64,000 bases of DNA from a virus, in the IMG/VR virus record IMGVR_UViG_3300018432_000290, positions 1 through 64,000 of that record; one strand, 5' to 3'. This document shows, one piece after another, positions 11,511 to 35,050 of this stretch. How positions within the stretch are numbered: position 1 is the stretch's first letter; each line of letters begins with the position of its first letter. The notes beneath the pieces were generated by a model. That model searched no databases and had not been told where the DNA came from. It saw only the letters and a list, made by a program, of their open reading frames with translations. The translations under genes and the position numbers were made by a program.

Positions 11511-11933
11511 ATGCGGCGTTACTGGTTGCGCCCTGCCCAGCCCACCACCGAGACGCTGCGCTCCGCGGCGTGGGACCACGTTCTGTTACGACTGGGGGCC
11601 GACGCGGCCGCCATGCGCACCCGGTTGGCCGACCAGGTGGTGGCCGACGAGGCCGCGCGCCGCCGTGTGGCACACGCACGGCACACGACGGTGCTGGCAT
11701 CTGTGGCACACACGGCCCAGCTGGGGGCCACGGTGGACCGGCTGGACCCCCCACCGGACCCCCCCACGGCCCCCATTCCCGGGCTGCCCCAGCAGCCTCC
11801 ACCGCCCCCGGAGACCGCCCGGGACCGCCGGCGCCGGCTGCGTCGCCGGGCCGGGGAGCTGGGCATCACCCAACACGGCAAGACCGACCGCCAGCTCGAG
11901 GACGAGATCGCGGCCCTCGCCGGGGAGTCCTGA
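11511..11933 (+). CDS. hypothetical protein, first gene of transfer operon
   Basis: A 140-residue protein; the ATG is preceded by AGGAGG at 11499-11504. The N-terminal half is a long Ala/Arg-rich helix (likely coiled coil, AAAMRTRLADQVVADEAARR). A Pro-rich linker leads to a basic C-terminal helix with RRRAGELGITQHGKTDRQLE, which resembles SAP or HeH-like DNA-binding helices. It could be a relaxosome or coupling accessory; this is inferred from operon position. Confidence 0.6.
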   Translation: MRRYWLRPAQPTTETLRSAAWDHVLLRLGADAAAMRTRLADQVVADEAARRRVAHARHTTVLASVAHTAQLGATVDRLDPPPDPPTAPIPGLPQQPPPPPETARDRRRRLRRRAGELGITQHGKTDRQLEDEIAALAGES

Positions 11934-12322
11934 TGTTGTCCAGGCTGTCCGGGCGCGTGTGGTTCGTGCTGCTGTGCGGGGCGCTGGTGCTGGCGGGTGC
12001 CCTGGGGGCGGCCCTGTGGTTCGCGGCGGTGTTCGCCGTGGAGGTGCTGACCTGGCCCGGGGTGGTCACCCTGCTGGCCGCGGAGGCCTGTGTGGCCGTG
12101 GGGGCGGTGCTGGACTACCGGGAGGCCCGCCTGGAGCCCCCCACCCGGCTGGCAGCCTGGCTGGTGGCCCACTACACGGTGGTGCGCCGCGTGTACCGGC
12201 GCGGGCGCTGGGCCGTGGACGGGGTCAAGGCCCGCCGGCGCGCGGCCACCGCCCGGGCCGCGGCCCAGGCCCGGCGTGACGCCGTCGGTGAGGACCAGCA
12301 GCGCGGGCGGGAGGCCGCGTGA
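11933..12322 (+). CDS. membrane protein of transfer operon
   Basis: A 129-residue protein. Two hydrophobic helices (VWFVLLCGALVLAGALGAAL and VLTWPGVVTLLAAEACVAVG) are followed by a basic cytoplasmic tail rich in Arg and Ala. It overlaps the upstream gene by one base and the coupling-protein gene by four. A two-helix anchor beside a coupling protein may help dock it to the membrane. Confidence 0.65.
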   Translation: MLSRLSGRVWFVLLCGALVLAGALGAALWFAAVFAVEVLTWPGVVTLLAAEACVAVGAVLDYREARLEPPTRLAAWLVAHYTVVRRVYRRGRWAVDGVKARRRAATARAAAQARRDAVGEDQQRGREAA

Positions 12323-13842
12323 CCCTGGCCGTGGCCCTGGTGGCGGTGCTGGTCATCGCCGGGGCCATCGCCTCGGTGCGCGCCGGGGCCGGGCGCCCGC
12401 GCGGGCTGGCCCCGGGGTTCGACCTGGTCAAGACCGTCAGCCTGGCCGCGGCCCGGCGCAAGGCCCTGCACACCCGGCCGGGGCTGACCATCAAGCACCG
12501 CCCCACGTGGCTGGGGGGCACCCCGGCCCGGCAGGTGGGCATCGAGTTGTGCCGGTCCGGGTGGCGCTGGCTGTACGCGTCCCTGGAGGACGTGGTGCTC
12601 ATCTTCGCCGAGCCCCGGTCCTGGAAGACCGGGCTGCTGTCGGCCCACGTGGTGGACCTGCCCGGGGGCGGGCTGGGCACCAGCACCCGCACCGACCTGT
12701 ACCTCAACACCGTGGAGCACCGGAAGGACCAGGGCCCGGTGCGGGTGTTCAACCCGGAGGGACTGGGGGCCACCATCGGGGTGCCCAACGACGCCCGGTG
12801 GGACATGGTGCGCGGGTGTGACGCCCCCGCCGAGGCCACCATGCGCGCCGGGTACCTGCTGTCCGGGTCGGCCAGCGGGGACAAGGTGTCCGACCGGGGG
12901 TACTGGGAGAGCAACGCCGGTCGCGCCCTGCGCTACCTGCTGTGTGCCGCGGCCCTGTCCGGGGGCTCCATGCACGAGGTGTACGAGTGGGGCCAGACCC
13001 TGTCCCAGCGGGCCCCGGTCTCCATCCTCAAGACCAACCCCGGGGCCCCGCCCGGCTGGGGGGAGGCCCTGGAGTCCTTGCAGGCCCAGGACCCCAAGCC
13101 CAAGGGGTCCGTGAGCGCCACCCTGACCCTGGCCCTGCAGTTCATGGACATACCGGAGCTGGCGTACGCGGCCACCCCGGGGCCGGGGGACGTCGGGCTG
13201 GACGTGCCGGCGTTCATCCTGGGCGGGGGGTTCCTGTACGTCATCGGCACACAGCGGGAGTACGCCCCCCTCACCCCGCTGTTCTCCGCGCTGGTGGGCC
13301 ACGTGGTGGAGACGTGCAAGAAGCTGGCCGGGAGCCGGGGTCGGCTGGACCCTCCGTTCGGCCTGATCCTGGACGAGGTGTACAACACCGCCCGGCTGCC
13401 GCTGGCCCGCATCAGCTCCGAGCTCGGCGGCATCGGCGTCCCCATCGTGTGCGCGTTCCAGGGGCTGGACCAGGCCGAGGAGATGCTGGGCGCGGCCGGG
13501 GCCGGGACGCTGTGGACCAACAGCGCCGTGCGCATGGGGGCCGGGGGCAGCGTGCCCAGCCTGGAGAAGCTGTCCACGCTGCTGGGGCACAAGGCTCAGC
13601 GCAACCGGCGCGGGGAGATCGAGCGTTCCCCCGTGCTCACCGCCAGCGAGATCGACCAGCTGGACCCCGGGAAGGCCGTGGTCTACACGCGCGGCAAACC
13701 CACCATCGGCACGGTGCGCCCCATCTGGGAGCGCCGCACCCCGCGGGCCAAGGCGCCCCACCCCCCCACCGGTCCGCTGGCCCCGGTGTACAGCCTGGAC
13801 GAGCAGCGCCGGGCCGGGCCCACCACCGAGGTGGGGTCGTGA
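12319..13842 (+). CDS. TraG/VirD4-type conjugative coupling protein
   Basis: A 507-residue protein with a GTG start. One N-terminal membrane helix (residues 1-18) precedes the ATPase. The Walker A region is AEPRSWKTG (K103, T104): the usual Gly before Lys is Trp102. Walker B is LILDEV (D352, E353), followed by TARLPLARISSELGGIGV and VCAFQGLDQAEEML, the TraM-recognition/TraG C-terminal pattern, and a sensor-like WTNSAVRMGAGGS. Such ATPases bring relaxase-DNA complexes to a type IV secretion channel at the membrane. It is unusual in a phage. No VirB4 is present, so the channel would have to come from elsewhere. Confidence 0.85.
   Translation: MTLAVALVAVLVIAGAIASVRAGAGRPRGLAPGFDLVKTVSLAAARRKALHTRPGLTIKHRPTWLGGTPARQVGIELCRSGWRWLYASLEDVVLIFAEPRSWKTGLLSAHVVDLPGGGLGTSTRTDLYLNTVEHRKDQGPVRVFNPEGLGATIGVPNDARWDMVRGCDAPAEATMRAGYLLSGSASGDKVSDRGYWESNAGRALRYLLCAAALSGGSMHEVYEWGQTLSQRAPVSILKTNPGAPPGWGEALESLQAQDPKPKGSVSATLTLALQFMDIPELAYAATPGPGDVGLDVPAFILGGGFLYVIGTQREYAPLTPLFSALVGHVVETCKKLAGSRGRLDPPFGLILDEVYNTARLPLARISSELGGIGVPIVCAFQGLDQAEEMLGAAGAGTLWTNSAVRMGAGGSVPSLEKLSTLLGHKAQRNRRGEIERSPVLTASEIDQLDPGKAVVYTRGKPTIGTVRPIWERRTPRAKAPHPPTGPLAPVYSLDEQRRAGPTTEVGS
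13820..13832 (+). promoter_or_regulatory. start-associated element on the plus strand
   Basis: CACCACCGAGGTG at the end of the coupling-protein gene, six bases before the GTG of the next gene. It is one base off the minus-strand consensus and encodes the TTEV of the C-terminal PTTEVGS. Confidence 0.6.
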
Positions 13843-14027
13843 GGCCCCCGTACCTGGCGCTGCTGCTGCTGGGGGCGGTGCTGGGCAGCTGGGCATGGCA
13901 GGTCCCGGCGTTCGGGGCCATCTTCTGGCCGCTGGTGCTCACGCTGTCGATCTGGCTGTGGGCCGACTACTTCCGCTCGGCGGCACGCCGCCGCCGGCGG
14001 GGACACCACAGGAGGAGTCATGGCTGA
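13839..14027 (+). CDS. small membrane protein of transfer operon
   Basis: A 62-residue protein with a GTG start in a GTGA overlap. Two hydrophobic helices (YLALLLLGAVLGSWAW and FWPLVLTLSIWLWADYF) are followed by a short Arg/His-rich tail. Function unknown. Confidence 0.6.
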   Translation: MRPPYLALLLLGAVLGSWAWQVPAFGAIFWPLVLTLSIWLWADYFRSAARRRRRGHHRRSHG

Positions 14028-14196
14028 GGACGGGTTCCTGGCCGCCGTGGGCGGGGCCCTGGTGGCCATCGCCACGCTGGGGATGGTGCGCGAGGACGAC
14101 GCGGCCCCGGGCGGTGGGGACGTGGGCACCCCCGTGATGCGCCACCGGGTGGAGTCCCTGGACGGGCGCGACACGGTCGAGGACGGGGTTTCATGA
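14020..14196 (+). CDS. small single-helix protein of transfer operon
   Basis: A 58-residue protein starting MAEDGFLAAVGGALVAIATL, so a short membrane helix comes first and an acidic polar tail follows. GGAGG lies six bases before the ATG. Function unknown. Confidence 0.55.
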   Translation: MAEDGFLAAVGGALVAIATLGMVREDDAAPGGGDVGTPVMRHRVESLDGRDTVEDGVS

Positions 14197-14597
14197 ACGC
14201 CGCCCGGTCCCGCGCCGGTGACCCGGACCAGCTGTCCCTGGACCTCACCGGGGACGGGGACGACGCCCCCACCGTCCACCAGGTGGGCGCGGTGTACGCC
14301 ATCCGCAACCGGCTGGGCATCGGCCACAGCCGCTACCGCCTGGACTGGGTGCACGTCCACCCGCTCAACCACTGGCACAACCCCGGCGGCTACGTCACGT
14401 GCGCCCTGACCCTGCTGGGTGGGATCGGCGGGGCCATGGTGGGCCCGGAGCACCTGGTCCCCGCCCAGTACGAAGGCCAGAGCACCTGGACCATGAGGAA
14501 GCCGGCCCCCCACCTGGGCACCCACTGCCGCTGGGCCGAGCAGGAGCAGCAGACGGCGGACCGCATCCAGGCCGAGCGCGCGGGGAGCACCCCGTGA
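14193..14597 (+). CDS. hypothetical protein of transfer operon
   Basis: A 134-residue protein. Acidic N-terminus, then a His-rich core with HSRYRLDWVHVHPLNHWHNP followed by GGYVTCALTLLGG. A C-terminal helix contains HCRWAEQEQQTADRIQ. No family recognised; the His cluster could bind metal. Confidence 0.55.
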   Translation: MNAARSRAGDPDQLSLDLTGDGDDAPTVHQVGAVYAIRNRLGIGHSRYRLDWVHVHPLNHWHNPGGYVTCALTLLGGIGGAMVGPEHLVPAQYEGQSTWTMRKPAPHLGTHCRWAEQEQQTADRIQAERAGSTP

Positions 14598-14869
14598 CCA
14601 CGTGGGACAGGGACAGCGCCGCCCCCCACACCCACGTGGGGCTGTTGGGCCAGACGTTCTCCTGCACGTGCTGCTGCCCGGACCCCCCTCCCACCCCCCG
14701 CGAGAACCCGGGCGGGTCCGGCAGCGGGGACGGCAGGGGGTGGCTGGAGGCCGTGGGCACCGCGGTCGCGGTGCTGGGCACGCTGGGGTGGTACCGGGGG
14801 GACCCGGAGCCCCCGCCCGTGCCCGAGCGCGCCGAGCTCGAGCGCGCCGAACCGGAGGACCAGCGGTGA
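14594..14869 (+). CDS. small Cys-rich hypothetical protein of transfer operon
   Basis: A 91-residue protein with a GTG start. CTCCC lies in a Pro/Gly-rich region, followed by a weakly hydrophobic segment (LEAVGTAVAVLGTLGWY) and an acidic tail. Four-base overlaps on both sides. Function unknown. Confidence 0.5.
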   Translation: MTTWDRDSAAPHTHVGLLGQTFSCTCCCPDPPPTPRENPGGSGSGDGRGWLEAVGTAVAVLGTLGWYRGDPEPPPVPERAELERAEPEDQR

Positions 14870-15360
14870 GCGGCAACGGGGACCGCCCCGCGGACCGCAT
14901 GCTGCGCGGGCGGGTGGATGAGCTGGACCGGGACCTCCAGGTCACCCGCGCGGCGGTCAAGGCGCTGTCGGAGAGCATCACGGCCATGGCCGTCCAGGCC
15001 GCGCGGGTGCGTCCCATCCACTGGCCGGACCTGCCCAACGACCAGCACGCCGCCCGGTACACGGAGCTGCTGGCCTGGATGCGGGAGGTGCTGGTGGAGC
15101 GCTACCCGTTCGACGCGGAAGCCCTCACCCCGTGCTGGTGGCGCCACCCCACGGCCGTGGACCTGCTCACCGCGGCCTGGCAGAGCTGGACGGCGGTGTA
15201 CCGCAACCCCGCGGCCAGCGTGGACCGCCAGGTGACGTGGCAGCACACCACGCGCCCCACCACCACGTTCCAGCTACGGCTGGCACTGAGCAACTGTTCC
15301 GGGGCCAAGCACGTGGACGACCCCCACCAGCCGGAGCTGGTCACGGGGGCCTGGGGGTAG
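14866..15360 (+). CDS. DUF4913-like protein
   Basis: A 164-residue protein with a GTG start. The C-terminal half contains LLAWMREVLVERYP, then LTPCWWRHPTAVDLLTAAWQ, which matches what I recall of DUF4913: a Cys-Trp-Trp with a following His and an aromatic helix, found mostly on actinobacterial plasmids and integrative elements. A helical N-terminus (residues 15-50) comes first. Last gene of the plus-strand operon; it converges with the next minus gene with one base between stops. Function unknown. Confidence 0.65.
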   Translation: MSGNGDRPADRMLRGRVDELDRDLQVTRAAVKALSESITAMAVQAARVRPIHWPDLPNDQHAARYTELLAWMREVLVERYPFDAEALTPCWWRHPTAVDLLTAAWQSWTAVYRNPAASVDRQVTWQHTTRPTTTFQLRLALSNCSGAKHVDDPHQPELVTGAWG

Positions 15361-18671: not shown

Positions 18672-18844
18672 CGGAACCCCCTCCACTCGTGCGGGACGGG
18701 ACGACCCTGCTCGCGCAGCAGGGCGGTCAGGGCGCCGGTTAGCACCGGCCACGCGCGGGCCAGCTCGGCCAGGGCGGCACGGTGGGCCGCCGGGCAGCGT
18801 CCGGGGTTCTCCACCGCGGCCAGGACGCGGGCCACGGCGGTCAC
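18668..18844 (-). CDS. small hypothetical protein
   Basis: A 58-residue helical protein with a GTG start, overlapping the sigma-factor gene by four bases. Being co-transcribed with the sigma gene, it could be a regulator of it, but nothing in the sequence proves this. Confidence 0.5.
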   Translation of the reverse strand: MTAVARVLAAVENPGRCPAAHRAALAELARAWPVLTGALTALLREQGRPVPHEWRGFR

Positions 18845-19386
18845 GACGCCACCGCCCTGCGCAGCTCGGCCAGCCCGCGGGCACACCGGGACTTCACCGT
18901 CCCCACCGGCACCCCCAGCCACACGGCCACGTCCACCTGGGGGACGCCGTCGTGGTGGACCAGCACCACCACGTCCAGGCGGTCCGGGGCCAGTAGCTCG
19001 AGGAGCGCGGTCACGTCCTTGCGGCACTCCACGGTGGCCAGCCCCGGGTCCTCCCGGGCCTCCCGCTCCCCCAGCTCGTCCAGCTGGGCCACCACGCGGG
19101 GACGCCTGCCGAAGGTGCGCAGGTGGGTGTACACCACGCTGGACGTCACGGTGTACAGCCAGGACCGGAACGATGCCCGGCCCGCCCACGTGTGCACGCT
19201 GTGCAGCAGGCGCACCGCCACCTCCTGGGTCATGTCGTCGGCGTCCCGGCTGGCGCGCCCCAGCAGGTGGTGGGCCACGTTGTGCACGTAGCGCTGGTGG
19301 CGGGTCCACAGCTCGGCGAAGGCGTCGGGGTCCCCGGCGGCGTACGCGGCCACCAGCGCCGCGTCGTCGCGCTCCAGGGGGCTCAC
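18841..19386 (-). CDS. ECF-type RNA polymerase sigma factor
   Basis: A 181-residue protein with a GTG start. Region 2 shows DAFAELWTRHQRYVHNVAHH, DADDMTQEVAVRLLHS and FRSWLYTVTSSVVYTHLR, the -10-binding helices of ECF sigmas. Region 4 shows LLELLAPDRLDVVVLVHHDG and VPVGTVKSRCARGL, the -35-binding HTH. No regions 1 or 3 are present. A phage-encoded ECF sigma could redirect host polymerase to a subset of phage promoters. It overlaps its upstream neighbour by four bases. Confidence 0.85.
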   Translation of the reverse strand: MSPLERDDAALVAAYAAGDPDAFAELWTRHQRYVHNVAHHLLGRASRDADDMTQEVAVRLLHSVHTWAGRASFRSWLYTVTSSVVYTHLRTFGRRPRVVAQLDELGEREAREDPGLATVECRKDVTALLELLAPDRLDVVVLVHHDGVPQVDVAVWLGVPVGTVKSRCARGLAELRRAVAS

Positions 19387-20315: not shown

Positions 20316-21350
20316 TCAGGCCGGGGTGGGCTGGAACAGCTTCCAGGCGGTGGCCTTGACGGCGTCGCTGCCACCCACCAGGGAACGGGCGGCGCGGGCA
20401 CGCTCCGGGGTGCCGTGGTCCCGGGTCTGGACCGCGGCGTGCCAGTCCAGGTACTCGGTGATCACGTTGTACCCGGCCCAGGCGGTCCCGCGCACCGTGG
20501 CCTGCTGGCTACCGTCCTGCAACAGCGCGACCAGCTGGTCCATCTTGGCCTTGTCGTTGGCCTTGGCCCGGTCGGTCAGGTCCTTGTCCCCGCCGGGGCG
20601 AATGATCTGCTTGGCCTTGATCTCGAACTCCCCGGTGGTCATGGGGGTGTTGACCATGCGCTCCGCGCCGGTCTGGAACTCCTCGAACCACTCGGAGGTC
20701 AGGCCCAGGTGCTTGCGGGCCTCGGCGATCTGCTGGGTGGCCTTCTCGGTGTGGCGCACCTTGTAGATCCCGTCGTTGCACCGCATGGCGGCGCGCTCGG
20801 TGTTGCCGCACACCACCCGGATCGGGGTCACGGCGGTGGTGAACGCGGAGCTGCCGTCGTGGCTGTTCAGGCAGGCCACGTACAGGTCCACGCGGTCCAC
20901 CCCGCCCACCTGCACGCTGCGCGGCAGCTTGGCCGTGATGAACACCCGGCGCCCGTGGTCCAGGCTCCCCCCGGTCTCCAGCGTGGCCCCGCCCTCGGCC
21001 ACCAGGGTCTGGAGGTAGGTGGCGTGGGCCTCGTTCTGGATGGGGGTGTACCAGCTCCCCACCGTGCCCAGCTTCTCCATCTGGCCGGTGAAGGGGCTTG
21101 TGCGCACCACGGTGCGCTCCGTGTCGTCCACCAGCGGGACCGTGGTGCCGTTCTCCAGCATCACGTGGGCCACGCTGGGCAGCGCGCGCACGTCCCAGCC
21201 CCCCAGGTACGCGGTGCGCATCAGCTCGTCGGGATCCATCAGGCCGTCGGTCACGGTCCCGAGACCGTGCCAGCCGGGTCGCACGGCGGCGGCAAAGCTG
21301 GTGACGACGGTCCCGTCGGCGGTGGTGTTCTGTTCCAACTCGTGGGCCAT
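20316..21350 (-). CDS. DUF932 phage/plasmid-like protein
   Basis: A 344-residue protein preceded by an AGGAGG eight bases from the ATG. It shows the DUF932 (TIGR03299-type) pattern: VRPGWHGLGTVTD near the N-terminus, VGSWYTPIQNEAHATYLQTL, TAKLPRSVQVGGVDRVDLYV, and VTPIRVVCGNTERAAMR. The family occurs on phages and plasmids of many bacteria; its role is not established. It is flanked by operator-like dyads upstream and imperfect GC-rich inverted repeats downstream. Confidence 0.85.
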   Translation of the reverse strand: MAHELEQNTTADGTVVTSFAAAVRPGWHGLGTVTDGLMDPDELMRTAYLGGWDVRALPSVAHVMLENGTTVPLVDDTERTVVRTSPFTGQMEKLGTVGSWYTPIQNEAHATYLQTLVAEGGATLETGGSLDHGRRVFITAKLPRSVQVGGVDRVDLYVACLNSHDGSSAFTTAVTPIRVVCGNTERAAMRCNDGIYKVRHTEKATQQIAEARKHLGLTSEWFEEFQTGAERMVNTPMTTGEFEIKAKQIIRPGGDKDLTDRAKANDKAKMDQLVALLQDGSQQATVRGTAWAGYNVITEYLDWHAAVQTRDHGTPERARAARSLVGGSDAVKATAWKLFQPTPA

Positions 21351-21537: not shown

Positions 21538-22824
21538 CTACTTCCCGGCCTTGGCCTTGGGCTTGGCGGGCAGGGCGTACCCCTGGTCCGAGGACCACAC
21601 CGTCTGGCCGTCCTGGGCCACCAGGCGCTGCTCCGCGGGGGTCCCCACCTTCTCGGCCTTGGCCGCGCGCCCGGCGGCGCTGGTGATGGCCTTGGCCGCG
21701 GTGGCGAACCGGCGGTAGTCGGTCCACTCGTCGGTGGACCCGGCGGCGCGGTACTGGAGCATGGGCCCGGCGTCCACCAGCTTCTGCTGGGTCTCCGACA
21801 GCGGGGTGGTGCGCACCCGCTCGGCGAACACCGCGGCCAGCCCGGTGGGCTCCCCCTCGGCGGGGGCCTTGGCCTTGGTGGCCTTGGTGGCCTTGGACCC
21901 CTTGGCCTTGGTGGCCTTGCGGTCCTGGGCCTCCTCCTCGAAGGACCGGGCGGGGGCCTCCCCGAGGACCAGCCACAGCTTGGTGGACTTGTCCACCTTG
22001 TCCAGCAGCCACCCACCGGCCCCCAGGACCCCCACCTGGTTGCCCACCCACTCCACGGTGCCCGTCCCGATGGGCGGGAACATGGCCGACTTGCCCCGGC
22101 CGTAGTACGTCACCGTCTGGCCGTGGACCAGCCCGTGCTGGCGGGCGGTCCCGCGCTGGGGCACCGGGCGCTCCTGGGGGCCCTTGGCCGGGCCGGGGTT
22201 GGTGGCCACCGCCTCGGCCACCATGGCCTCCACCGGGTCGGCGTCGTCCTTGGCGGGCTGGCCCTCCGGGGCCGGGTACTCCCAGCCCTGGGCGTCGGCC
22301 AGCTCCTCGTCCGTGGCGTGGTCCCGCGCGTCGCGCTCCACGTCGTCGGCGTCGGCCATGCGGGCCTCGTCGTCCTGGGCGGTCTCCTCGTCCCCGTCGT
22401 CCTCGAAGGCGGGCACCAGCTCCCCGCTGTCCTCGAAGCGCTCCGCGTCCAGCTGGGCGGCGCCCTCGGCGTGGTGGGCGCACCGCTCCGGGCCCATGTC
22501 CCCGGCACAGTCGGTGTCGGCGTCGGCACACGCCGCGTGGGGGTCGGTGTCGTCGGCGGTGGCGGCGACCTTGGCGGCCTGGGTGGCGGTGAACCCCTCC
22601 GGCAGGCCCTGGGCCTCGTCGGTGGCGCGCTGGGCCTGCTCGGTCTCCCACTCGACGGCGGCGACCACGCGGGGGGTCCCGGGCAGCTTCTTGCCCGCGC
22701 GGCGGGCGTTGGCCGCGGTGGTGTAGCGGGTGACCTCCTGGCCCTCGTGGGACACCAGCACCCACGGGCGGGGGGTGCCCGGGGCGGCGTCGGTGGTGGG
22801 GGCGGGGGCGGTGGACTCGGTCAT
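21538..22824 (-). CDS. large acidic Ala/Lys-rich hypothetical protein
   Basis: About 428 residues from the ATG six bases behind a 13-bp element; an in-frame ATG at 22873-22875, directly behind a dyad, would add 17 residues. The N-terminus has VLVSHEGQEVTRYTTAANAR, a central acidic stretch follows, then a strand-rich domain (HGQTVTYYGRG, IGTGTVEWVG) and a Lys/Ala tail with ATKAKGSKATKATKAKAP, reminiscent of histone-like tails. Possibly DNA-associated; function not known. Confidence 0.6.
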   Translation of the reverse strand: MTESTAPAPTTDAAPGTPRPWVLVSHEGQEVTRYTTAANARRAGKKLPGTPRVVAAVEWETEQAQRATDEAQGLPEGFTATQAAKVAATADDTDPHAACADADTDCAGDMGPERCAHHAEGAAQLDAERFEDSGELVPAFEDDGDEETAQDDEARMADADDVERDARDHATDEELADAQGWEYPAPEGQPAKDDADPVEAMVAEAVATNPGPAKGPQERPVPQRGTARQHGLVHGQTVTYYGRGKSAMFPPIGTGTVEWVGNQVGVLGAGGWLLDKVDKSTKLWLVLGEAPARSFEEEAQDRKATKAKGSKATKATKAKAPAEGEPTGLAAVFAERVRTTPLSETQQKLVDAGPMLQYRAAGSTDEWTDYRRFATAAKAITSAAGRAAKAEKVGTPAEQRLVAQDGQTVWSSDQGYALPAKPKAKAGK

Positions 22825-22830
22825 GGCGTG

Positions 22831-22843
22831 CTCCTCGGTGGTG
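22831..22843 (-). promoter_or_regulatory. start-associated 13-bp element
   Basis: Perfect CACCACCGAGGAG before the ATG at 22824. It is in frame with an upstream ATG at 22875, where it would read DTTEEH. Confidence 0.75.
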
Positions 22844-27522: not shown

Positions 27523-27765
27523 TCAGTAGGCCTCGGTGGGGCAGTTGGCGGCGTGGACCTCGTGCAGCGGGGCGGTGCAGTAGCCACACAGGCCCCGGGC
27601 CTGGAGGGTGGCGCGCACGTTGGCCAGGTCGGCGTCCGCGCCCGGCTCGTGGAACAGCGCGTCCACCTCCAGCTCCTCGGCGAGGTCGCGCAGCTCGGCG
27701 GTGCTGTACGTGGCGTACGCGGCGGCCTGGGCCGGCGTGGGGGCGGGGGTCTCGGTGGCGGTCAT
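27523..27765 (-). CDS. small Cys-containing protein, leaderless-type start
   Basis: An 80-residue protein starting MTATETPAPTPAQ directly behind dyad copy 3. A helical middle (STAELRDLAEELEVDALF) is followed by CGYC and a His/Cys near the end (HEVHAANC), a likely zinc site. Confidence 0.6.
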   Translation of the reverse strand: MTATETPAPTPAQAAAYATYSTAELRDLAEELEVDALFHEPGADADLANVRATLQARGLCGYCTAPLHEVHAANCPTEAY

Positions 27766-27771
27766 ACCACC

Positions 27772-27784
27772 AGTGTGACACACT
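27772..27784. promoter_or_regulatory. AGTGTGACACACT dyad, copy 3
   Basis: Perfect dyad six bases before the ATG at 27765, with GGGA on its upstream side and the GCAGGTCACAGG block farther up, matching the other two copies. Confidence 0.65.
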
Positions 27785-28059
27785 TCCCGCCGCGCCGAGG
27801 GGCCTGTGACCTGCGAGGATGCCTTTCCGCCGCGCCAGAGTGCCAGCCTGGGACGGGGTCCCCTGGGGCCGCTGGTGCTGGGCCGGTGCCGCGCGGGGTC
27901 CCGGCTCGGTACGGGTCCAGAGGTGACCGGCTCCCGGGGACCTCTACCCCACCCACCAGCACCCCGCCAGGGACCGCTGCGCTCGCCTGCGGCGCCCTGG
28001 CGGGGCGCCGGCGCGCGGGGTCGGGACGAGGTCATCGCCGGGCACCCCAGGCCCCGGCC
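27785..28059. other. divergent intergenic region with long hairpin
   Basis: The gap between the minus gene ending at 27765 and the plus gene starting at 28080 holds the upstream block of dyad copy 3, and a perfect 11-bp inverted repeat CCCCGCCAGGG (27962-27972) with 27995-28005 around 22 bases. No tRNA or reading frame with good third-position GC was seen. The repeat may be an operator, an attenuator or a small-RNA stem. Confidence 0.5.
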
Positions 28060-28072
28060 CACCACCGAGGGA
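28060..28072 (+). promoter_or_regulatory. start-associated element on the plus strand
   Basis: CACCACCGAGGGA, matching the consensus core, eight bases before the ATG at 28080. Confidence 0.65.
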
Positions 28073-28079
28073 CCCCACC

Positions 28080-28463
28080 ATGAGCGACACCATCCTCCCC
28101 GCCACCGACGAGCTCCCCGACCCCGCGCGACTGTCCAGGCTGGGCAAGCTGGCCAAGGCCGCCAGCGCCACCGGGGGACCGGAGTTCGGCACCCCGGAGT
28201 GGTTCGCCCTGTTCCTGGAGCCCGTCACCCCCCAGGCGCGCGCCCAGCGCGAGGCCGCCCTCATCCGCGCCGCGTTCTGCTGGGTGGCCGCGGAGCTCGG
28301 GCTGGGTGCCCCGGCCAGCCGTGAGCGCCTGGACGCCCTGGTGCGCGAGGAGTCCGCCCGCGCGGTGGTCCAGGACGTCGCGGGCCCCATGTCCGCCCTG
28401 CACGGCGACCGTCGCGCCTGGGCCCGGGCCTCGGCGGCCTACGTGGCCCGCGAGAGGGCCTGA
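28080..28463 (+). CDS. hypothetical protein
   Basis: A 127-residue helical protein starting MSDTILPATDELPDPAR. Contains TPEWFALFLEPVTPQARAQR and ALIRAAFCWVAAELG. A single plus-strand gene between the accessory region and the relaxase region, closed by a very strong hairpin. Unrecognised family. Confidence 0.6.
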   Translation: MSDTILPATDELPDPARLSRLGKLAKAASATGGPEFGTPEWFALFLEPVTPQARAQREAALIRAAFCWVAAELGLGAPASRERLDALVREESARAVVQDVAGPMSALHGDRRAWARASAAYVARERA

Positions 28464-28471
28464 ACGCGACG

Positions 28472-28508
28472 CCGGCCCGCCACCCTGGGACACAGGGTGG
28501 CGGGCCGG
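28472..28508. terminator. 16-bp perfect bidirectional hairpin
   Basis: 28472-28487 pairs perfectly with 28493-28508 around five bases, between converging genes ending at 28463 (plus) and 28580 (minus). It is the longest perfect terminator-type stem seen in the window. Confidence 0.75.
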
Positions 28509-28579
28509 GGTCACCCGGGGAGCACGTGCAGGGTCTGGGCCAGGTGCGGCCGGGACCTCCTGGAGGAGCGGGGGGCGGG

Positions 28580-29239
28580 CTAGCGCCCCACCCCGTCCTG
28601 GAACTCCGGGGACACCTGGTCCGCCGTGCCGGCGCCGGGCAGCGTGTTGTCCGCGTGCGCGCCGTCCCCGCCCACCACGTCCGGGGCCGAGGCCTCCGCG
28701 TCGGTGCCGGCCTGATCCGCGGCCCCGGTCCCGGGGCTGGTGTCGGACGTGGTGCCGCCCGGGTCCACCTCGGGGGGCAGGGGCTCCAGCGCCGGCACGC
28801 TGCCGTCCACACTGCCGGGGTCCGGGGTGTCCGGGTTGGTGACCGGGGGGGCCTCCACCGGACCGGTGGGTACGGCCGGGTCGTTGACGGGCTCGGCCAC
28901 CACCGAGGCCAGCGCGTCCGCGCTGGCGTCCACGCTGGCCGTGATGGCCGCCAGCTGGGCGCGGGTGGCGTCGTCCAGGCCGCCGGCGTTGGCCAGCTGC
29001 TCGGTGAGCAGCGCGATCTTGCCACGCAGGTCCGGCACGATGGTGGCGATCTGGGCCACGTAGCCACCCGTGCGGGTGGCGGCCTGCTGGAGCTGCTCGA
29101 GGTCGAGTGCCATGCGGGTGCTCACTTCCTGGATTCGGTCGGTGAGCGGGGCCAGCAGCCAGCTGCGCGCGGCGCGGGCGCAAGCCTGCGCCGCCTCGCG
29201 CGCCAGCAGTCGAGCCAGCGGTCCACTCGGGGTGTTCAC
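28580..29239 (-). CDS. hypothetical helical protein
   Basis: A 219-residue protein with a GTG start. Residues 1-110 are helical and Ala-rich (LARLLAREAAQACARAARSW, then LLTEQLANAGGLDDATR), likely coiled coil, and the rest is an acidic Pro/Gly/Asp-rich disordered tail. Function unknown; it is the only minus-strand gene between the two plus-strand units. Confidence 0.6.
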   Translation of the reverse strand: MNTPSGPLARLLAREAAQACARAARSWLLAPLTDRIQEVSTRMALDLEQLQQAATRTGGYVAQIATIVPDLRGKIALLTEQLANAGGLDDATRAQLAAITASVDASADALASVVAEPVNDPAVPTGPVEAPPVTNPDTPDPGSVDGSVPALEPLPPEVDPGGTTSDTSPGTGAADQAGTDAEASAPDVVGGDGAHADNTLPGAGTADQVSPEFQDGVGR

Positions 29240-29296
29240 GCGCGCAGCGTCCCACCGGTGCCGCTCGAGGTCCCACGTGCCACGCCCACAGCCTTG

Positions 29297-29302
29297 TACC
29301 GT
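29297..29302 (+). promoter_or_regulatory. TACCGT -10 element before LuxR-type gene
   Basis: TGTACCGT on the plus strand, 26 bases before the putative start at 29329. The same octamer precedes the coupling-protein operon at 11412-11419. Confidence 0.45.
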
Positions 29303-29328
29303 GATCGCCGCCCACGGAGGGGATCACG

Positions 29329-29733
29329 CTGTCCCGGTTCATCCCGCCCCTGACGGCCAGCCAGGCCCGGGTGCTGCTGTACCTGACCACCGACCTGACG
29401 GTGCGGGAGATCGCCGCGCTGCTGCACGTCTCCACCAACACCATCCGCACCCACCAGCAGGCCATCTATCGCAAGCTGGGGGTGGGGGGACGGCGGGAGG
29501 CGGTGCGGGCCATGGCGGCGGGTGGCCACGGGGAAATCAACCGTTGGCTGGGGCGCACCTGGGAGGTGCGGGCCACCGGGGACCGGGTGTCGCTGATCCT
29601 GGACGGGGGGTCCCCCGTGATGACGGTGGGCGCCGCGCGCCAGCTGGCGCGCGCCCTGCTGGACGCTGCCACCCGCGCGTCCTGTGACACCACCCCGCGG
29701 CCGGGGTCCCCCCAGCCCCCCGTGCAGTCCTAG
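29329..29733 (+). CDS. LuxR/GerE-type helix-turn-helix regulator
   Basis: About 134 residues if a CTG (29329-29331), six bases behind GGAGGGG, is the start; the first ATG or GTG alternative (GTG 29371) would cut into the domain. The HTH is clear: LTASQARVLLYLTTDLTVRE, then IAALLHVSTNTIRTHQQAIY and RKLGVGGRREAVRAM, matching the GerE signature almost position by position. No receiver or ligand domain is present. The C-terminus (GRTWEVRATGDRVSLILDGG) is strand-rich and unassigned. It is the nearest upstream gene to the relaxase unit, so it probably regulates it. Confidence 0.75.
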   Translation: MSRFIPPLTASQARVLLYLTTDLTVREIAALLHVSTNTIRTHQQAIYRKLGVGGRREAVRAMAAGGHGEINRWLGRTWEVRATGDRVSLILDGGSPVMTVGAARQLARALLDAATRASCDTTPRPGSPQPPVQS

Positions 29734-29781
29734 TGCCGACAGACCTATGTCTGTCCTAGGTCTGTCCTAGGTGGCTCCTAG
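29728..29781. repeat. inverted and direct repeats upstream of relaxase, oriT candidate
   Basis: GACAGAC and GTCTGTC form a perfect 7-bp inverted repeat around CTAT (29738-29755). GTCTGTCCTAG occurs twice in direct tandem (29749-29759 and 29760-29770), with a weaker third copy ending at 29781; TCCTAG occurs four times in 54 bp. Inverted plus direct repeats just upstream of a relaxase gene are what an origin of transfer or an autoregulatory site looks like. I could not match a known nic site. Confidence 0.5.
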
Positions 29782-29950
29782 TCCCCCATCCCTCAGCACC
29801 CCCCAGGAATCTCGGGCACGTCACCCGTCCGGGGGACCCCGGGTGCACGTGCATCCGGGGCCGGCGAAGGCCCAGGGCGGTAGGGCCAGTGATCCACGGG
29901 CCAGTGCGGAAGGGAAGGCGGCAGGCCAGGTACACAGTTGCAACCGACCG

Positions 29951-29978
29951 TTGACCCGGGTACGGACCCCGCTACAGT
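29951..29978 (+). promoter_or_regulatory. sigma70-type promoter of relaxase operon
   Basis: TTGACC (29951-29956) and TACAGT (29973-29978) are separated by 16 bases, close to the housekeeping consensus. The 8-bp palindrome GTTGCAAC (29938-29945) overlaps its upstream edge and could be an operator. The first gene starts 42 bases downstream. Confidence 0.6.
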
Positions 29979-30020
29979 GCTCAAGGCCAGGAGTCCCCCA
30001 GCTCCCGCGGAGTCGCCGCT

Positions 30021-30263
30021 ATGAACACCCCTGCCAACGGACGTCGCCGGGCGTGGGGGCGGCGCGACCGCCGGGTGTGGGGGCGGCGCTACGCCCAGGC
30101 CGACCGGGCGGTGCGCGAGGCCACCATCGGGGTGGCCAACGTGCGCGCCCGCGGACAGGCCGTCCCGGACGCGCTGCTGGCCGACCGCGGAGAGAAGATC
30201 ACCCGGCGGGCCGACGTCAGGGAAGCGGCGGCCAACGAACGGCGGGGGCTGGCCACCCCGTGA
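30021..30263 (+). CDS. small basic protein encoded before relaxase
   Basis: An 80-residue protein with GGAG eight bases before the ATG. The first third is Arg/Trp-rich (RRRAWGRRDRRVWGRRY), the rest helical with alternating charge. It overlaps the relaxase gene by four bases. A DNA-binding relaxosome accessory is a reasonable guess from size, charge and position only. Confidence 0.6.
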   Translation: MNTPANGRRRAWGRRDRRVWGRRYAQADRAVREATIGVANVRARGQAVPDALLADRGEKITRRADVREAAANERRGLATP

Positions 30264-33200
30264 GCGTGTCCGCCACGGCGGTGTCGGACGGGGGCTACTA
30301 CCTGCGCGCGTGCGACAAGCACAAGGCCCCCAAGGACCGCCCGGAGGCCCACGGCCCGGCCGCGTACGAGCTGAACGCGGTGGCCGGCGGGGAGCCCCCC
30401 GGGGAGTGGTACGGGGCCGGAGCTCGGGCCCTGCGCCTGGTGGGGGAGATCGTGCCGGGGCAGCCCAGCGGGGATGACTTCTCCACCCTGGTGGACGAGG
30501 TCAAGCACCCCCACACCGGGGAGAAGCTGGGCAGCCGGCCGCGGCGGTTCAAGACCGCCGAGCAGCTGGTGGCCCAGTACCGGGCCAAGCACCCGGACGC
30601 CACCCCGGAGCAGGTGTCCGAGCAGGCCGCGAAGGCCAGCACCAAGCGGCGCAAGAACGTCCACGCGTACGACCTGGGGTACGGGCTGCCCAAGAGCTGG
30701 AGCGTGTTGCACGCCGCCCTCGAGCGCGAGGGCCGGACCGCCGAGGCCGCCCTGATGTGGGAGGCCATCAACGCCGGCGTGAAGGCCAGCCTGGACCAGG
30801 CCGCGGAGGAGCACGGGTGGACGCGCACGGGGGTGGGCGGGCCCCGGGTGCACGGCCAGAGCACCACCCGCAACGTGCGGGCCCCGGACTGGACCATGGC
30901 CATGTTCCGTCACCACACCAGCCGGGACCGGGACCCCCAGCTGCACGTCCACGTGATGCTGCTCAACCGGGTCCAGCTGCCGGACGGGAGCTGGAAGGCC
31001 ATCCACGCGGCCCCCCTGATGCGGGCCAAGCACCAGCTGGACGCCACGTTCCTGCGCGTGGCCGAGGCCAAGCTCTATGAGCTGCTGGGCTACAGCGTGG
31101 CCACCCGCCCGGACGGCAAGGCCCGGGAGATCCTGGGGGTGTCCCAGGCGGTGCGGGATCTGTTCTCCAGCAGGTCACGGGCCCTGACGGAGCGCGCGTC
31201 GGAGCTGGTGGACGGCTACGCGGCCAAGCACAAGCTGGAGTCGGTGAGCCCGTTCATCCGGTGGTCCATCCTCCAGTACGCGGCCCGGGACAGCCGCAAG
31301 CCCAAGGCCCAGGGGATCACCCGCAAGCAGGACCTGGCCCGCTTCGAGGCCACCATGCGCGAGGCCGTGCGCGGGGGGCTGGACGGGGTGGTGGCCGACA
31401 CCGACAAGGCCCGCGCCCAGCCGTCCCCGGCCCTGCCGTGGAACGACGAGCTGGTGATCGACCAGGCGTTGGCCGACCTGGACTCCAGGAGCGGCACCAG
31501 TAAGGCCGTGTGGAACCGGTCCCACCTGTACCACGCCATCAGCATGCGGCTGCCGGACCGGCTCAACCTGCCCGCCGAGGACATTCCCACCCTGCTGTCC
31601 GCCCTGACGGAGCAGGCCCTGGCCAGCCCCCAGGTGATCAGCGTGGAGGCCCCGGGGGCGGCCCGGGTGCCGGACAGCCTGCGCGACGCGCGCACGGGTC
31701 GGTCGGTGTTCGACGCCCCGGAGGGGGAGCGCTACACCACCGCGGCCCACCTGGGGCGGGAGGACAGCCTGGTGGCCCGCCTGGACCAGGTGGGGGCCCC
31801 GACGGTGCCGGAGGGCACCACCCGTGCCCTGATCGCCGCGCGCCACGAGCTGGACGACCAGCAGGCCGACGTGGCCGCCGCCGTGATGGCCGATGAACAC
31901 CGCATCGTCCAGATCGAGGCCCCGGCCGGGTCCGGCAAGTCCCGCGTGGTGGGGGCCATCAGCGACGTGTCCGAGCAGGTGTACGGCCACGGGCTGCTGG
32001 GGTTCACCACCGCCCAGAACGCCGCGGAGGTGCTGGCCCGGGAGGGGGTGCAGCGGGCCCACAACATCGCCGCGTACCTGGACTTCCTGGACCGCGCCCA
32101 GCACGGGGAGGTCACGGACACGGAGCGTGCCACGTTCGCCGTGCCACGCGGTGCCACGGTGGTGGTGGACGAACGCACCCTGGTGGGCACGCGGGACCTG
32201 GTGCGCCTGCTGGACGCCCTGGACCGCGCCGGCGCGGGCAAGTACGTGCTGGTGGGGGATGAGGAGCAGGCCGGGGCCGTGGACGCCGGCGGGGCCGCCG
32301 CGCTGATGAACCGGGAGCGCGAGCCCTACCGGCTGGCCACCATCCACCGGTTCCACGAGCAGTGGGAGCGCGACGCATCCGCGGAGGTCAGGCAGGGCAA
32401 GGTGGAGGCCCTGATCCCGTACCAGGTGCGGGGCCGGCTGCACGGCAGCACCGACGCGGAGTGGGTGCGGGACGCGGCCGTGGAGGGGTTCGTCCGGGAC
32501 TACCTGGACGGGGAGCAGTCCATCATCGTCACGCGCACCGGGGAGGACGCGTCCAACCTGAACAGCCGGGTGCGCGCCCAGCTGGTGCGCCACGGGCGCG
32601 TGTCCGACGAGGGAGCCGTCCCCCTGCGCGATGACACCGTGGCCGGGGTGGGGGACCTCGTGGCCACCCGCAAGAACAGCCGTGCACGCGGGGTGGTCAA
32701 CCGGGAGCAGTGGGAGGTGGTGGGCACCACCAGCCACGGGGCGCTGGAGGTGCGCCGCCTGGAGGGGCGGGACAAGGACACCGGGGCCATGCGGTACGGG
32801 CCCACCCGCACCCTGGACGCGGAGTACACGCGGGAGCAGGTGGAACTGGCCTACAGCGGCACGGTGGAGGCCGTCCAGGGACGCAACCCGGACACCAGCC
32901 ACCTGCTGGTCACCCCCGGCATGGGGCGCAGCCACTTCTATCCCGGGTTCGCCCGGGGGTCCAAGCGCAACCACGCGTATGCGGTGCTGGAGGACGACAA
33001 GCAGACGCCGCTGGGGCGCATCGGGGACGTGCTGGAGTACGACGACCGGGAGGTGGCCGCCCGCCAGGTGATTGCGCAGGAGCTGGAGCGCAGCGAGCAC
33101 CTGGGCCACCTGGGCCCCCAGTGGCAGCAGCTGGTGATCGAGGACAGCGCCGTCCACCACCGGGAGCTGATGCGTCAGGCCCTGGGGGATGACGCCCAGC

Positions 33201-35050
33201 GGGTGCTGGAGGACCCGGACGCCGGCGGGCTGCTGCGGCTGATGCGCGCCGCGGAGACCGAGGGCCACCAGCCGGAGAAGGTGCTGGCCGCCGCGCGCGG
33301 GCGCGGCAACCTGACGGGGGCGCGGTCCCCGGCCCGGGTGCTGTTCGCGCGCATGGACCGGGAGCTGGACCGGGCGCGGTCCCAGCGCCAGGAGGAGGAC
33401 CCGGACGCGCCGGCGGTCCCGTTCACCTATCAGGCCCGGGTGCGCCCGGTGGAGCACGGGGCCCGGGACAACGCCGAGCGCGCGTACGCGGCCGAGCTGG
33501 CCCGGGCCATGGACCACAGCGTGGCCGAGCTCGGGCAGCGCGTGGTGGAGCAGTGGCCGGCCTGGGCCCAGCGCCAGTGGGGGGACCTGCCGGACGATCC
33601 CCTGGAGCGTCAGGCCCTGGCCGGTCGGGCGGCCCCGGTGGCCGCGTACCGCGAGCAGTTCGGGTGGGACGACGAGCTGGACCCCATCGGCCCCCAGCCG
33701 TCGCGCACGGAACCGGAGCGGGCGTGGGTGTGGAACCGGGCCGCGGACACCATGGGGCTGGACCGCCACAGCCGGGACCTGGCCGGGCTGAGCGCGGGGG
33801 AGCTGGAGAACCGGCGCCAGGCCTGGCAGCGGGAGCAGACCTGGGGTCCGCGCAACGTGGACGACGAGCTGGGGGCCACTCACCTGGCCGCCGAGCGCGC
33901 CCGGGCCAAGGCCGTGGAGGCCCGCGCCGCCTACGGGGAGGACCTGGACCTGGAGGCCGCCGCGGAGAGCGAGCGCGCCCGGGTGCGTCAGCTGGAGTAC
34001 GTGGCCCAGGTGCGCAAGGACTGGTACGCGGAGACCCGGGACACGCGGGTGGCCGCGGAGTACGCGGCGGCCGAGCAGGAACGGCGCGCGGAGCTGGAGC
34101 AGGCACGGCAGGACGACCCGGTCACGCGTGACGTCACGCGTGACCCGGAGACCCGTGACGTCACGCGTGACGTCACGCGTGACCAGCCCCAGCGCGAGAT
34201 CCCGGACGAGGACCAGGTGCCCGCGTGGGCCCAGGAGGCCCGGCGCGGCGTGGACGCGGAGGCCCGCCGCGCCCAGGATCTGCGGTGGGCCCGGGAACGT
34301 GCGGCCGAGCGCGCCGCCCAGGCCCGGGAGCGCGAGGAGCAGGAACGCGTTACGCGTAACGCGCAGCCCGTCCCGGACGATGGGCGGGGTGAGAACGGGC
34401 CGAATAATATTTCCCGGGATCCCACACCGGTGCCCGACGCCCCCTCAGATGAGGGCCCGGAAGTAGACGACCCCCCGCGTGAGCTGGGCGAGGACCGGCC
34501 GGTTGACGATCCGGCCCCGGTCGAGAGGTTGCCGGAACCCCACCCGCGTCCCCTGCCGGAGCCGGAGCGGGAGCCGGAGGAGGACCAGCCCGAGGACGAG
34601 CCGCAACCGGAGCCGGTGGACGAGCTGGCCGCGCGCCGGGAGGCCAAGGCCGAGCGCGAGGCCGAGCAGGAGCACCAGCGCGAGGACGACGAGGGGGACG
34701 AGCCCATCGGCGGGTGGCGGGACGCCCCGGACGACTACACCGACGAGCAGGTGCAGGAGCGCGAGGACCGCGCCCCGGACGCGGACGTGGTGGACCTCGA
34801 GCGGGAGCGCCAGCAGCGGGAGCAGGACGACGCCGCCGCGGCCGCGCGCGAGGCCGACGAGCGCGCCGAGGAGCAGGCCCGCCAGCAGGCCCGCGCGGAC
34901 CGTGACGCCCAGCTGCGCGCGGACGTGGAGAAGGCCCAGGAGGCCGCGCGCATCATGGCCGAGCGCCGGGAGGCGGCCGAGCGCGAGCAGGACGAGCGGG
35001 AGCCGGACCCGGCCCCGGTGCGCGAGGACACCCACCAGCGCGAGGACTAG
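30260..35050 (+). CDS. MobF-family (TrwC/TraA) conjugative relaxase-helicase
   Basis: 1,596 residues from a GTG that overlaps the upstream gene by four bases. Relaxase domain (1-330): paired tyrosines Y13-Y14 in GGYYLRA, EWYGAGARAL, YDLGYGLPKSWSVLHAAL, and the metal-binding histidines FRHHTS (218-219) and DPQLHVHVML (229, 231). Helicase domain (about 520-900): Walker A APAGSGKS (554-561), VVVDERTL, YVLVGDEEQAGAVDAGGAAAL and YSGTVEAVQGRN, the RecD/TraI-type motifs. A highly charged, coiled-coil-like tail of about 700 residues follows. Such enzymes nick oriT, stay bound to the 5-prime end through Tyr and unwind the strand for transfer. All catalytic positions appear intact. Confidence 0.92.
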   Translation: MSVSATAVSDGGYYLRACDKHKAPKDRPEAHGPAAYELNAVAGGEPPGEWYGAGARALRLVGEIVPGQPSGDDFSTLVDEVKHPHTGEKLGSRPRRFKTAEQLVAQYRAKHPDATPEQVSEQAAKASTKRRKNVHAYDLGYGLPKSWSVLHAALEREGRTAEAALMWEAINAGVKASLDQAAEEHGWTRTGVGGPRVHGQSTTRNVRAPDWTMAMFRHHTSRDRDPQLHVHVMLLNRVQLPDGSWKAIHAAPLMRAKHQLDATFLRVAEAKLYELLGYSVATRPDGKAREILGVSQAVRDLFSSRSRALTERASELVDGYAAKHKLESVSPFIRWSILQYAARDSRKPKAQGITRKQDLARFEATMREAVRGGLDGVVADTDKARAQPSPALPWNDELVIDQALADLDSRSGTSKAVWNRSHLYHAISMRLPDRLNLPAEDIPTLLSALTEQALASPQVISVEAPGAARVPDSLRDARTGRSVFDAPEGERYTTAAHLGREDSLVARLDQVGAPTVPEGTTRALIAARHELDDQQADVAAAVMADEHRIVQIEAPAGSGKSRVVGAISDVSEQVYGHGLLGFTTAQNAAEVLAREGVQRAHNIAAYLDFLDRAQHGEVTDTERATFAVPRGATVVVDERTLVGTRDLVRLLDALDRAGAGKYVLVGDEEQAGAVDAGGAAALMNREREPYRLATIHRFHEQWERDASAEVRQGKVEALIPYQVRGRLHGSTDAEWVRDAAVEGFVRDYLDGEQSIIVTRTGEDASNLNSRVRAQLVRHGRVSDEGAVPLRDDTVAGVGDLVATRKNSRARGVVNREQWEVVGTTSHGALEVRRLEGRDKDTGAMRYGPTRTLDAEYTREQVELAYSGTVEAVQGRNPDTSHLLVTPGMGRSHFYPGFARGSKRNHAYAVLEDDKQTPLGRIGDVLEYDDREVAARQVIAQELERSEHLGHLGPQWQQLVIEDSAVHHRELMRQALGDDAQRVLEDPDAGGLLRLMRAAETEGHQPEKVLAAARGRGNLTGARSPARVLFARMDRELDRARSQRQEEDPDAPAVPFTYQARVRPVEHGARDNAERAYAAELARAMDHSVAELGQRVVEQWPAWAQRQWGDLPDDPLERQALAGRAAPVAAYREQFGWDDELDPIGPQPSRTEPERAWVWNRAADTMGLDRHSRDLAGLSAGELENRRQAWQREQTWGPRNVDDELGATHLAAERARAKAVEARAAYGEDLDLEAAAESERARVRQLEYVAQVRKDWYAETRDTRVAAEYAAAEQERRAELEQARQDDPVTRDVTRDPETRDVTRDVTRDQPQREIPDEDQVPAWAQEARRGVDAEARRAQDLRWARERAAERAAQAREREEQERVTRNAQPVPDDGRGENGPNNISRDPTPVPDAPSDEGPEVDDPPRELGEDRPVDDPAPVERLPEPHPRPLPEPEREPEEDQPEDEPQPEPVDELAARREAKAEREAEQEHQREDDEGDEPIGGWRDAPDDYTDEQVQEREDRAPDADVVDLERERQQREQDDAAAAAREADERAEEQARQQARADRDAQLRADVEKAQEAARIMAERREAAEREQDEREPDPAPVREDTHQRED
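34121..34183. repeat. four copies of palindrome GTCACGCGTGAC
   Basis: The 12-bp palindrome occurs at 34121-34132, 34133-34144, 34160-34171 and 34172-34183: two head-to-tail pairs 39 bp apart, inside the relaxase gene. In the protein it reads as repeated VTRD. Confidence 0.85.
34346..34363. repeat. 18-bp perfect palindrome
   Basis: CGCGTTACGCGTAACGCG is perfectly self-complementary and shares the ACGCGT core with the four 12-bp palindromes 160 bp upstream. It codes for VTRN in the relaxase tail. Confidence 0.85.

Follow-up and report, generated by a model that had tools for sequence, protein, structure and literature searches.

A plasmid-type relaxase and a VirD4 homologue carried by a siphovirus: a possible second route between cells for a tailed phage

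Why should a tailed phage carry the genes with which conjugative elements process their DNA? The question is raised by virus record IMGVR_UViG_3300018432_000290 (68009 bases, classed by IMG/VR as linear), of which bases 1–64000, here called the window, were analysed. This DNA encodes a siphovirus structural module together with a MobF relaxase-helicase and a homologue of the coupling protein VirD4/TrwB, the latter preceded by a small membrane protein gene and followed in the same operon by a gene for a DUF4913 protein. Found together in phages, a relaxase that keeps its active-site residues, a homologue of the coupling protein and companions known from plasmids most plausibly form a system that mobilizes the phage genome. 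That this siphovirus keeps an actinobacterial plasmid-type DNA-transfer cassette, and may be mobilized as single-stranded DNA besides making virions, is a reading that we consider about evenly poised between right and wrong.

Genes were called with a codon-based caller and families were assigned by Pfam (curated cut-offs) and PHROG profile searches; the features are collected in Table 1. The marks of a siphovirus are all present (TerL, portal, HK97-type head protein, tape measure and tail tube) and lie in a minus-strand module. Two mainly plus-strand blocks, 11511–15360 with VirD4 and 30021–35050 with MobF, both abut minus-strand genes, the gaps at their 3′ borders being 1 and 59 bases by the gene call. 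The composition of the blocks is not distinguishable from that of the remaining window: their tetranucleotide signatures lie within the range of equal-length window stretches (at or above 54% of 61 stretches for the VirD4 block and 27% of 59 for the relaxase block) and their codon use correlates at 0.97–0.99 with that of the rest. G+C content per kb is 62–79%, mostly 70–79%, and base composition and relatives indicate that the host is probably a high-G+C actinobacterium. The first 10 bases of the record are not repeated in its last 5 kb, nor the last 10 in its first 6 kb, and the record is therefore possibly incomplete. A poly-G run at the record start (window 1–80) is probably an assembly-end artefact.

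The MobF reading frame is open throughout its 1596 codons. Residues 38–367 of its product match Pfam TrwC (2.7e-44, 152 bits against a cut-off of 25) and residues 531–731 match AAA_30 (7.1e-34), and the nearest solved structures by sequence are the TrwC/TraI relaxases, FRHHTSRDRDPQLHVHVMLLN of MobF aligning with FRHETSRERDPQLHTHAVILN of TrwC. The three histidines of the HUH motif (FRHHTSR...LHVH) align with those of TrwC, helicase motif I (Walker A) reads APAGSGKS, and a GYY tyrosine pair near the N-terminus, which falls in the column of the relatives’ conserved tyrosine, contains the putative catalytic residue. Only the helicase part finds a match in the PHROG library (phrog_325, Dda-like helicase). 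The predicted model of the relaxase domain was poor (pLDDT, the predicted local distance difference test score, was 51) and was not used.

The VirD4 frame is likewise open, over 507 codons. Its product matches TraG-D_C (1.7e-11) and T4SS-DNA_transf (2.5e-5), both above their cut-offs, has a single N-terminal hydrophobic segment (residues 1–19) as expected of a membrane-anchored protein, and keeps the Walker B Asp-Glu. No solved structure was matched by the sequence alone; an AlphaFold model built from eight virus-borne VirD4 sequences including that of the window (pLDDT 83.5, predicted template-modelling (TM) score 0.82) has Cagbeta (2e-14) and TrwB (6.8e-14; TM by target reaching 0.71) as its best PDB folds, with HerA and VirB4 ranking behind them. 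Walker A is GK(S/T/G) in 16 of the 19 VirD4 sequences aligned and lacks the Gly in three, all on virus contigs. As this glycine is replaced in the window protein (SWKT), we describe the protein, on its sequence and predicted fold, as a VirD4/TrwB homologue and not as a proven coupling ATPase. The VirD4 proteins of virus contigs G023 and G024 (L080, L081) read PQSLKT and PQTLKT at the same place, and these two group in the tree with that of contig G022, a branch of VirD4 in which the Walker A glycine can be missing. The operon comprises seven plus-strand genes, VirD4 lying inside it and the DUF4913 gene last. The initial annotation, made from the letters alone, had recognised a siphovirus structural module, a MobF enzyme with Tyr, His and Walker motifs, and a TraG/VirD4 coupling ATPase in an eight-gene operon with a DUF4913-like gene at its end; the module was matched in every part (TerL, portal, head, protease, adaptor, tail and tape measure), the enzyme is borne out by the Pfam, alignment and motif evidence given above, and the VirD4 family and DUF4913 end stand, whereas the number of genes is corrected to seven and the ATPase designation is weakened by the Gly to Trp change. 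Two palindromes in the gap before the operon (window 11417–11459), CGTATCC-7-GGATACG and GGGACACGCC-1-GGCGTGTCCC, where the digit is the spacing between the arms, are possible operators.

The same cassette is found on actinobacterial plasmids. In tblastn searches of 72,556 plasmid records the relaxase found matches in 3367 and VirD4 in 456, all below 60% identity. On the circular 30–73 kb plasmids that were opened (from Streptomyces, Amycolatopsis, Prauserella and Natronoglycomyces) a gene on the same strand is followed by VirD4 and then by a gene of 200–300 amino acids (aa), and a convergent MobF gene lies near VirD4; the gene after VirD4 is not annotated on pA387, MobF is located away from VirD4 on a Pseudonocardia plasmid, and on a Cellulosimicrobium plasmid stretch VirD4 was neither annotated nor matched. 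The gene before VirD4 encodes hydrophobic segments in all eight plasmids checked and is annotated DUF2637 in four. The window DUF4913 protein itself finds a match in the gene immediately downstream of VirD4 in S. tendae (L074, 2.8e-7), Streptomyces NBC_01352 (L077, 3e-6) and S. chartreusis (L073, 7e-5), and five plasmid VirD4 relatives are 29–37% identical to the window protein over the alignment. The closest parallels are S. chartreusis unnamed3, S. tendae unnamed2, Streptomyces NBC_01352 and pA387, which like the window have a membrane protein, VirD4 and a DUF4913-like protein in that order, and MobF (relaxase 31–34% and VirD4 29–37% identical to those of the window). They differ from it in that no phage genes are annotated, MobF is convergent and close by, and VirD4 is longer and has GK(S/T).

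At least four virus records carry the MobF, VirD4 and DUF4913-like set: the window record, G021, G423 and G025. G021 (72 kb) has genes for TerL, portal, head protein, tape measure, serine recombinase and primase, and its VirD4, DUF4913-like and MobF genes stand side by side. G423 (69 kb, from another metagenome by its name) was found with the G021 relaxase; it has TerL, and its MobF is 88% identical to that of G021. The two share 31 of the 96 G021 genes and the cassette in the same order, as one plus-strand run in G423, and no G021 gene before 14.5 kb, the region of its head, packaging and tape measure genes, has a match in G423. G025 is a 37 kb fragment with tape measure, primase-helicase and ParA-type ATPase genes besides the same set, its head genes having been sought only as homologues of those of the window. 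The window DUF4913 protein matches G025 (0.003) and G423 (3.4e-6), and the VirD4 proteins of G021 and G423 keep a canonical Walker A. Between G021 and G423 the ratio of non-synonymous to synonymous substitution rates (dN/dS) is 0.134 for MobF, the lowest of the eight genes compared (dS 0.5–1.0); a 110-aa neighbour has 0.20, the DUF4913-like gene 0.35 and VirD4 0.44. MobF is under purifying selection in this pair. The proposal with which we began, that a phage carries the DNA-processing half of conjugation, is thus strengthened by the recurrence of the pairing in three more records and by selection on the relaxase in the pair that could be tested.

The numbers of such phages are lower bounds, the IMG/VR alignment scans having returned at least one MobF contig and at least five VirD4 contigs. 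VirD4 occurs with no detected MobF in G022, G023, G024 and G026, of which G026 has homologues of the portal, protease, head, TerL and tape measure genes of the window (25–35% identity) and G022 a tape measure match; a near-DNA search of plasmids with G026 gave helicase matches only. In a set of 50,697 phage records two unannotated faecal contigs match the window relaxase and no record matches VirD4; scans for close relatives found none of either protein in virus contigs and none of the relaxase in genome contigs, and the G025 relaxase, used as query, recovered nothing but itself. With TerL as query 37 related loci were found and the records of 20 were tested. Compared over the whole record, G001, G004, G005 and G018 share with the window TerL and in part the tail, portal, adaptor, small-subunit and exonuclease genes, at low identity. 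As none of the 20 TerL relatives has MobF, the cassette is distributed by module and not throughout a lineage. VirD4 was also found in none of the 20, a result that carries no weight as there was no control. In a tree of 16 relaxases (without G423) the three phage MobF proteins group as a single clade in 1% of 200 bootstrap replicates; the phage branches are long, and a single origin and multiple origins are both compatible with this.

We propose the following working for the cassette, which is made up of MobF, the VirD4/TrwB homologue with the small membrane protein before it, and the DUF4913 protein. In a lysogen or early in infection the relaxase would nick an origin of transfer (oriT) on the circular phage genome, remain bound to the 5′ end and unwind the strand. 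VirD4, anchored in the membrane beside the small membrane protein, would take over the relaxase–DNA complex, perhaps with help from the DUF4913 protein (DUF4913 is not named in the literature that we searched), and the strand would pass to a neighbouring cell through the type IV channel of a helper or through a minimal channel of the cassette’s own. The outcome would be a second route between cells without lysis.

Several observations weigh against mobilization of the window phage. Its VirD4, the shortest of the 19 sequences compared, reads EPRSWKT at Walker A, with Trp for Gly in place of the canonical GK(S/T), and this altered P-loop leaves the predicted pump in doubt in this phage. Helicase motif II of MobF is DERTL, as opposed to DEAGM, DEASM or DEGSM in 15 others. 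The MobF and VirD4 genes are separated by 16 kb, and the repeat upstream of the MobF operon that could be an oriT is not above background, the window having 163 perfect inverted repeats with 7-nt arms and loops of 3–8 nt. The selection test covers the pair G021/G423 and not the window copy, and the 20 TerL-related virus records tested, many of them fragments, are all without MobF. No VirB4 was recognised either. The marker PF19044, which we take to cover VirB4, was absent from the one record searched with it, that of the window, and rings in 7 of 14 control genomes. AAA_10 (PF12846) was absent from all four cassette-bearing phage records and rings in 10 of the 14 controls; this family served as a VirB4 marker where TrwC, VirD4 and VirB4 models found actinobacterial integrative and conjugative elements (ICEs), according to excerpts of PMC3218068. 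No ParA-type ATPase (PF13614), tyrosine integrase (PF00589) or serine recombinase (PF00239) was found in the 68-kb, possibly incomplete, window record. The absence of a VirB4 gene noted in the initial annotation is accordingly upheld with both markers, and the label ‘phage-plasmid’ that it had given is not supported. Five proteins of the type IV secretion system (T4SS) locus of an Iamia plasmid that has a channel locus found no counterpart at E 0.01 in the four whole cassette plasmids, the other plasmid stretches or the phage records, a weak test for a distant VirB4. As these homologues are missing from the four plasmids too, as they are from the window record, the cassette may need a helper or use a minimal channel of its own.

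Other uses of the two proteins have to be set beside mobilization. A relaxase-helicase that nicks an origin and unwinds DNA could have been recruited for rolling-circle replication of the phage, with VirD4 left over or serving segregation. The length of the protein, its helicase and the phrog_325 match fit this, and the window proteins scanned, which were not the whole gene set, included none recognised as a primase or replicative helicase. However, VirD4 and a DUF4913-like gene, for which replication has no need, accompany the relaxase in four of four phage records, and G021 and G025 themselves encode primase or Prim-Pol proteins; we think recruitment for replication unlikely. The cassette might also be cargo, taken from a plasmid and losing its function in the window phage. 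This would account for the altered P-loop, the altered helicase motif II, the short VirD4 and the splitting of the cassette, but both frames are open (1596 and 507 codons), their codon use and composition are like those of the rest of the phage and the relaxase catalytic residues are retained; the purifying selection on MobF in G021/G423 also speaks against decay as such, although it says nothing direct on the window copy. Decay thus seems doubtful taken by itself, and for the window copy replication and decay together come close in likelihood to working mobilization.

An assembly chimera, or a plasmid or ICE inserted by chance in a phage contig, is rejected as very improbable. Such an origin could draw on the linear record with its poly-G start, on the failure to find a close relative with the same junctions and on the TerL relatives without MobF. 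Against it stand two separate plus-strand blocks packed tightly against minus-strand genes, a block composition that fits the window, and three further virus records with the same set, of which two, from different assemblies and with differing head genes, are syntenic; it is the recurrence of the pairing, together with purifying selection on the relaxase in the tested pair, that makes chimera or chance insertion unlikely. Equally far from our expectation is that relaxase and VirD4 act on co-resident plasmids or ICEs, by competing for channel or oriT or by entry exclusion, and not in phage transfer. Such competition could conceivably be exerted by a coupling protein whose P-loop is unusual, and MobF elements are common, being present in 146 of 394 genomes of the class of a Kribbella genome that was used as a centre and is not an identified host of the phage (genome contigs scanned with TerL yielded four distant loci, a scan used only to centre this census). 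Nothing direct speaks for competition, however, and it would not require a complete relaxase-helicase.

How does the cassette compare with known systems? The TrwC/TrwB pair of R388, in which TrwB is the partner of TrwC, is likewise a MobF relaxase-helicase with a coupling protein, TrwC being matched by sequence and TrwB by fold. R388 has a full type IV channel, and the window VirD4 differs from that system in its non-canonical P-loop. Nearer in kind are the plasmid-phages of Streptomyces, which, according to excerpts of PMC4170104 (citing the pFP4 paper), propagate and conjugate as episomes and also form infective particles. Like the window, pFP4 and pZL12 are tailed-phage genomes, theirs persisting as plasmids; pFP4 carries ParA, DUF2637, head and tail genes, and its transfer gene is of the FtsK/SpoIIIE type (41 bits), in contrast to the relaxase and VirD4 of the window. 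The pFP4 FtsK protein has no match in the window record at E 0.01 (the family PF01580 itself was not searched), and the window relaxase and VirD4 find no match in pFP4 or pZL12, one of the pZL12 comparisons covering its first 50 kb. Phages that both conjugate and make virions are therefore already reported in Streptomyces and, as the pFP4 transfer gene is FtsK-type, it is the relaxase/VirD4 version that is new. Circular plasmid records of Streptomonospora litoralis phiM2 (NZ_CP036456; L099/L100) and pFP4 (L101) have annotated head and tail genes together with DUF2637 genes, and phage-plasmids of actinobacteria may often carry transfer modules. Elsewhere, Phi1207.3 of Streptococcus is a prophage capable of conjugal transfer (excerpts of PMC4260502, in whose main text the word ‘relaxase’ does not occur). 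Excerpts of PMC10879196 and PMC12977533 describe the gain of mob or oriT by P1-like plasmids, the former giving relaxase or oriT in 30 P1-like plasmids and two P1-like phage-plasmids; such P1-like plasmids are no longer phages, whereas the window head and tail module looks complete. No report of MobF with VirD4 in a tailed phage was seen among the titles and abstract beginnings listed, a scope that leaves out most subscription literature and does not prove that there is none.

Transfer by phages and transfer by conjugative elements are as a rule treated as separate classes. If the mobilization proposed here is right, each such genome could travel between cells either in a virion or as single-stranded DNA: a selected relaxase and a coupling protein beside virion genes would permit spread between touching cells with neither receptor recognition nor lysis, which would bear on host range and on the mixing of phage and plasmid modules. 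The finding also draws attention to a cassette that recurs on actinobacterial plasmids with no recognised VirB4, and whose channel is a testable question. A stronger form, in which membrane protein, VirD4, DUF4913 protein and MobF make up a self-sufficient minimal cassette, dispersed among actinobacterial tailed phages and moving the whole genome as relaxase-bound single-stranded DNA without lysis or VirB4, we put forward only tentatively and think improbable as it stands.

Table 1. Features of the window, with window coordinates and the basis of each assignment.
Feature	Coordinates	Strand	Basis
First gene of VirD4 operon, 140 aa	11511..11933	+	Gene call; no Pfam/PHROG match
Small membrane protein, three hydrophobic segments, directly before VirD4	11933..12322	+	Hydropathy only; no Pfam/PHROG match
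VirD4/TrwB homologue, 507 aa	12319..13842	+	Pfam, alignment, fold of AlphaFold model
Three small genes (58, 134 and 91 aa) between VirD4 and DUF4913 gene	14020..14869	+	Gene call; 134-aa gene without Pfam/PHROG match
DUF4913 gene, last of VirD4 operon	14866..15360	+	PF16259 1.5e-5, 25.5 bits against cut-off 25, marginal
LuxR/GerE-type helix-turn-helix regulator upstream of MobF	29371..29733	+	PF00196 5.6e-11
Candidate oriT or operator (speculative) upstream of MobF operon: inverted repeat GACAGAC-CTAT-GTCTGTC and direct repeat CCTAnGTCTGT	29738..29765		Repeat search
Sigma-70-like promoter match before MobF operon	29951..29978	+	1 in 27700–35400, 0.1 expected
80-aa gene overlapping MobF start by 4 bases, probably same operon	30021..30263	+	Gene call
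MobF relaxase-helicase (TrwC domain, AAA_30 helicase, charged C-terminal tail), 1596 aa	30260..35050	+	Pfam, structure alignment, motifs
Tape measure, 1669 residues, with endolysin-like part	48154..53163	-	phrog_4197 4.7e-182, phrog_971 1.7e-142
Head-tail adaptor, major tail protein, tail assembly chaperone	53188..57589	-	phrog_442, phrog_476, phrog_2624
Major head protein	58217..59509	-	phrog_10 2.3e-56
S78 prohead protease	59523..60476	-	PF04586 5.1e-36
Portal	60489..61787	-	phrog_12 1.7e-92
Terminase large subunit (TerL)	62004..63695	-	phrog_9 5e-136
RecT-like annealing protein and exonuclease VIII-like protein	6850..8813	-	phrog_2780, phrog_412

There are no tRNA genes within the 64-kb window. 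Among its other genes are a phage-encoded sigma-70 family factor (18841–19386), a DUF932 protein (20316–21350; phrog_1221, 6.6e-82), a 445-aa protein with a strong coding signal and no PHROG or Pfam match (21538–22875) and, amid tail-end genes, a protein with a polysaccharide lyase domain (1.1e-26; 38708–39838). Just past the window, record bases 64182–67956 (L002:14182-17956) hold a probable 7-deazaguanine DNA-modification cassette that could shield the phage DNA from restriction: GTP cyclohydrolase I (3e-52), QueD/PTPS (8.6e-28), a radical SAM protein slightly below cut-off (QueE-like by eye), a weak ParB_N match also below cut-off, and a queuine tRNA-ribosyltransferase-like protein (phrog_887, 2.5e-48) that we take to be DpdA-like.

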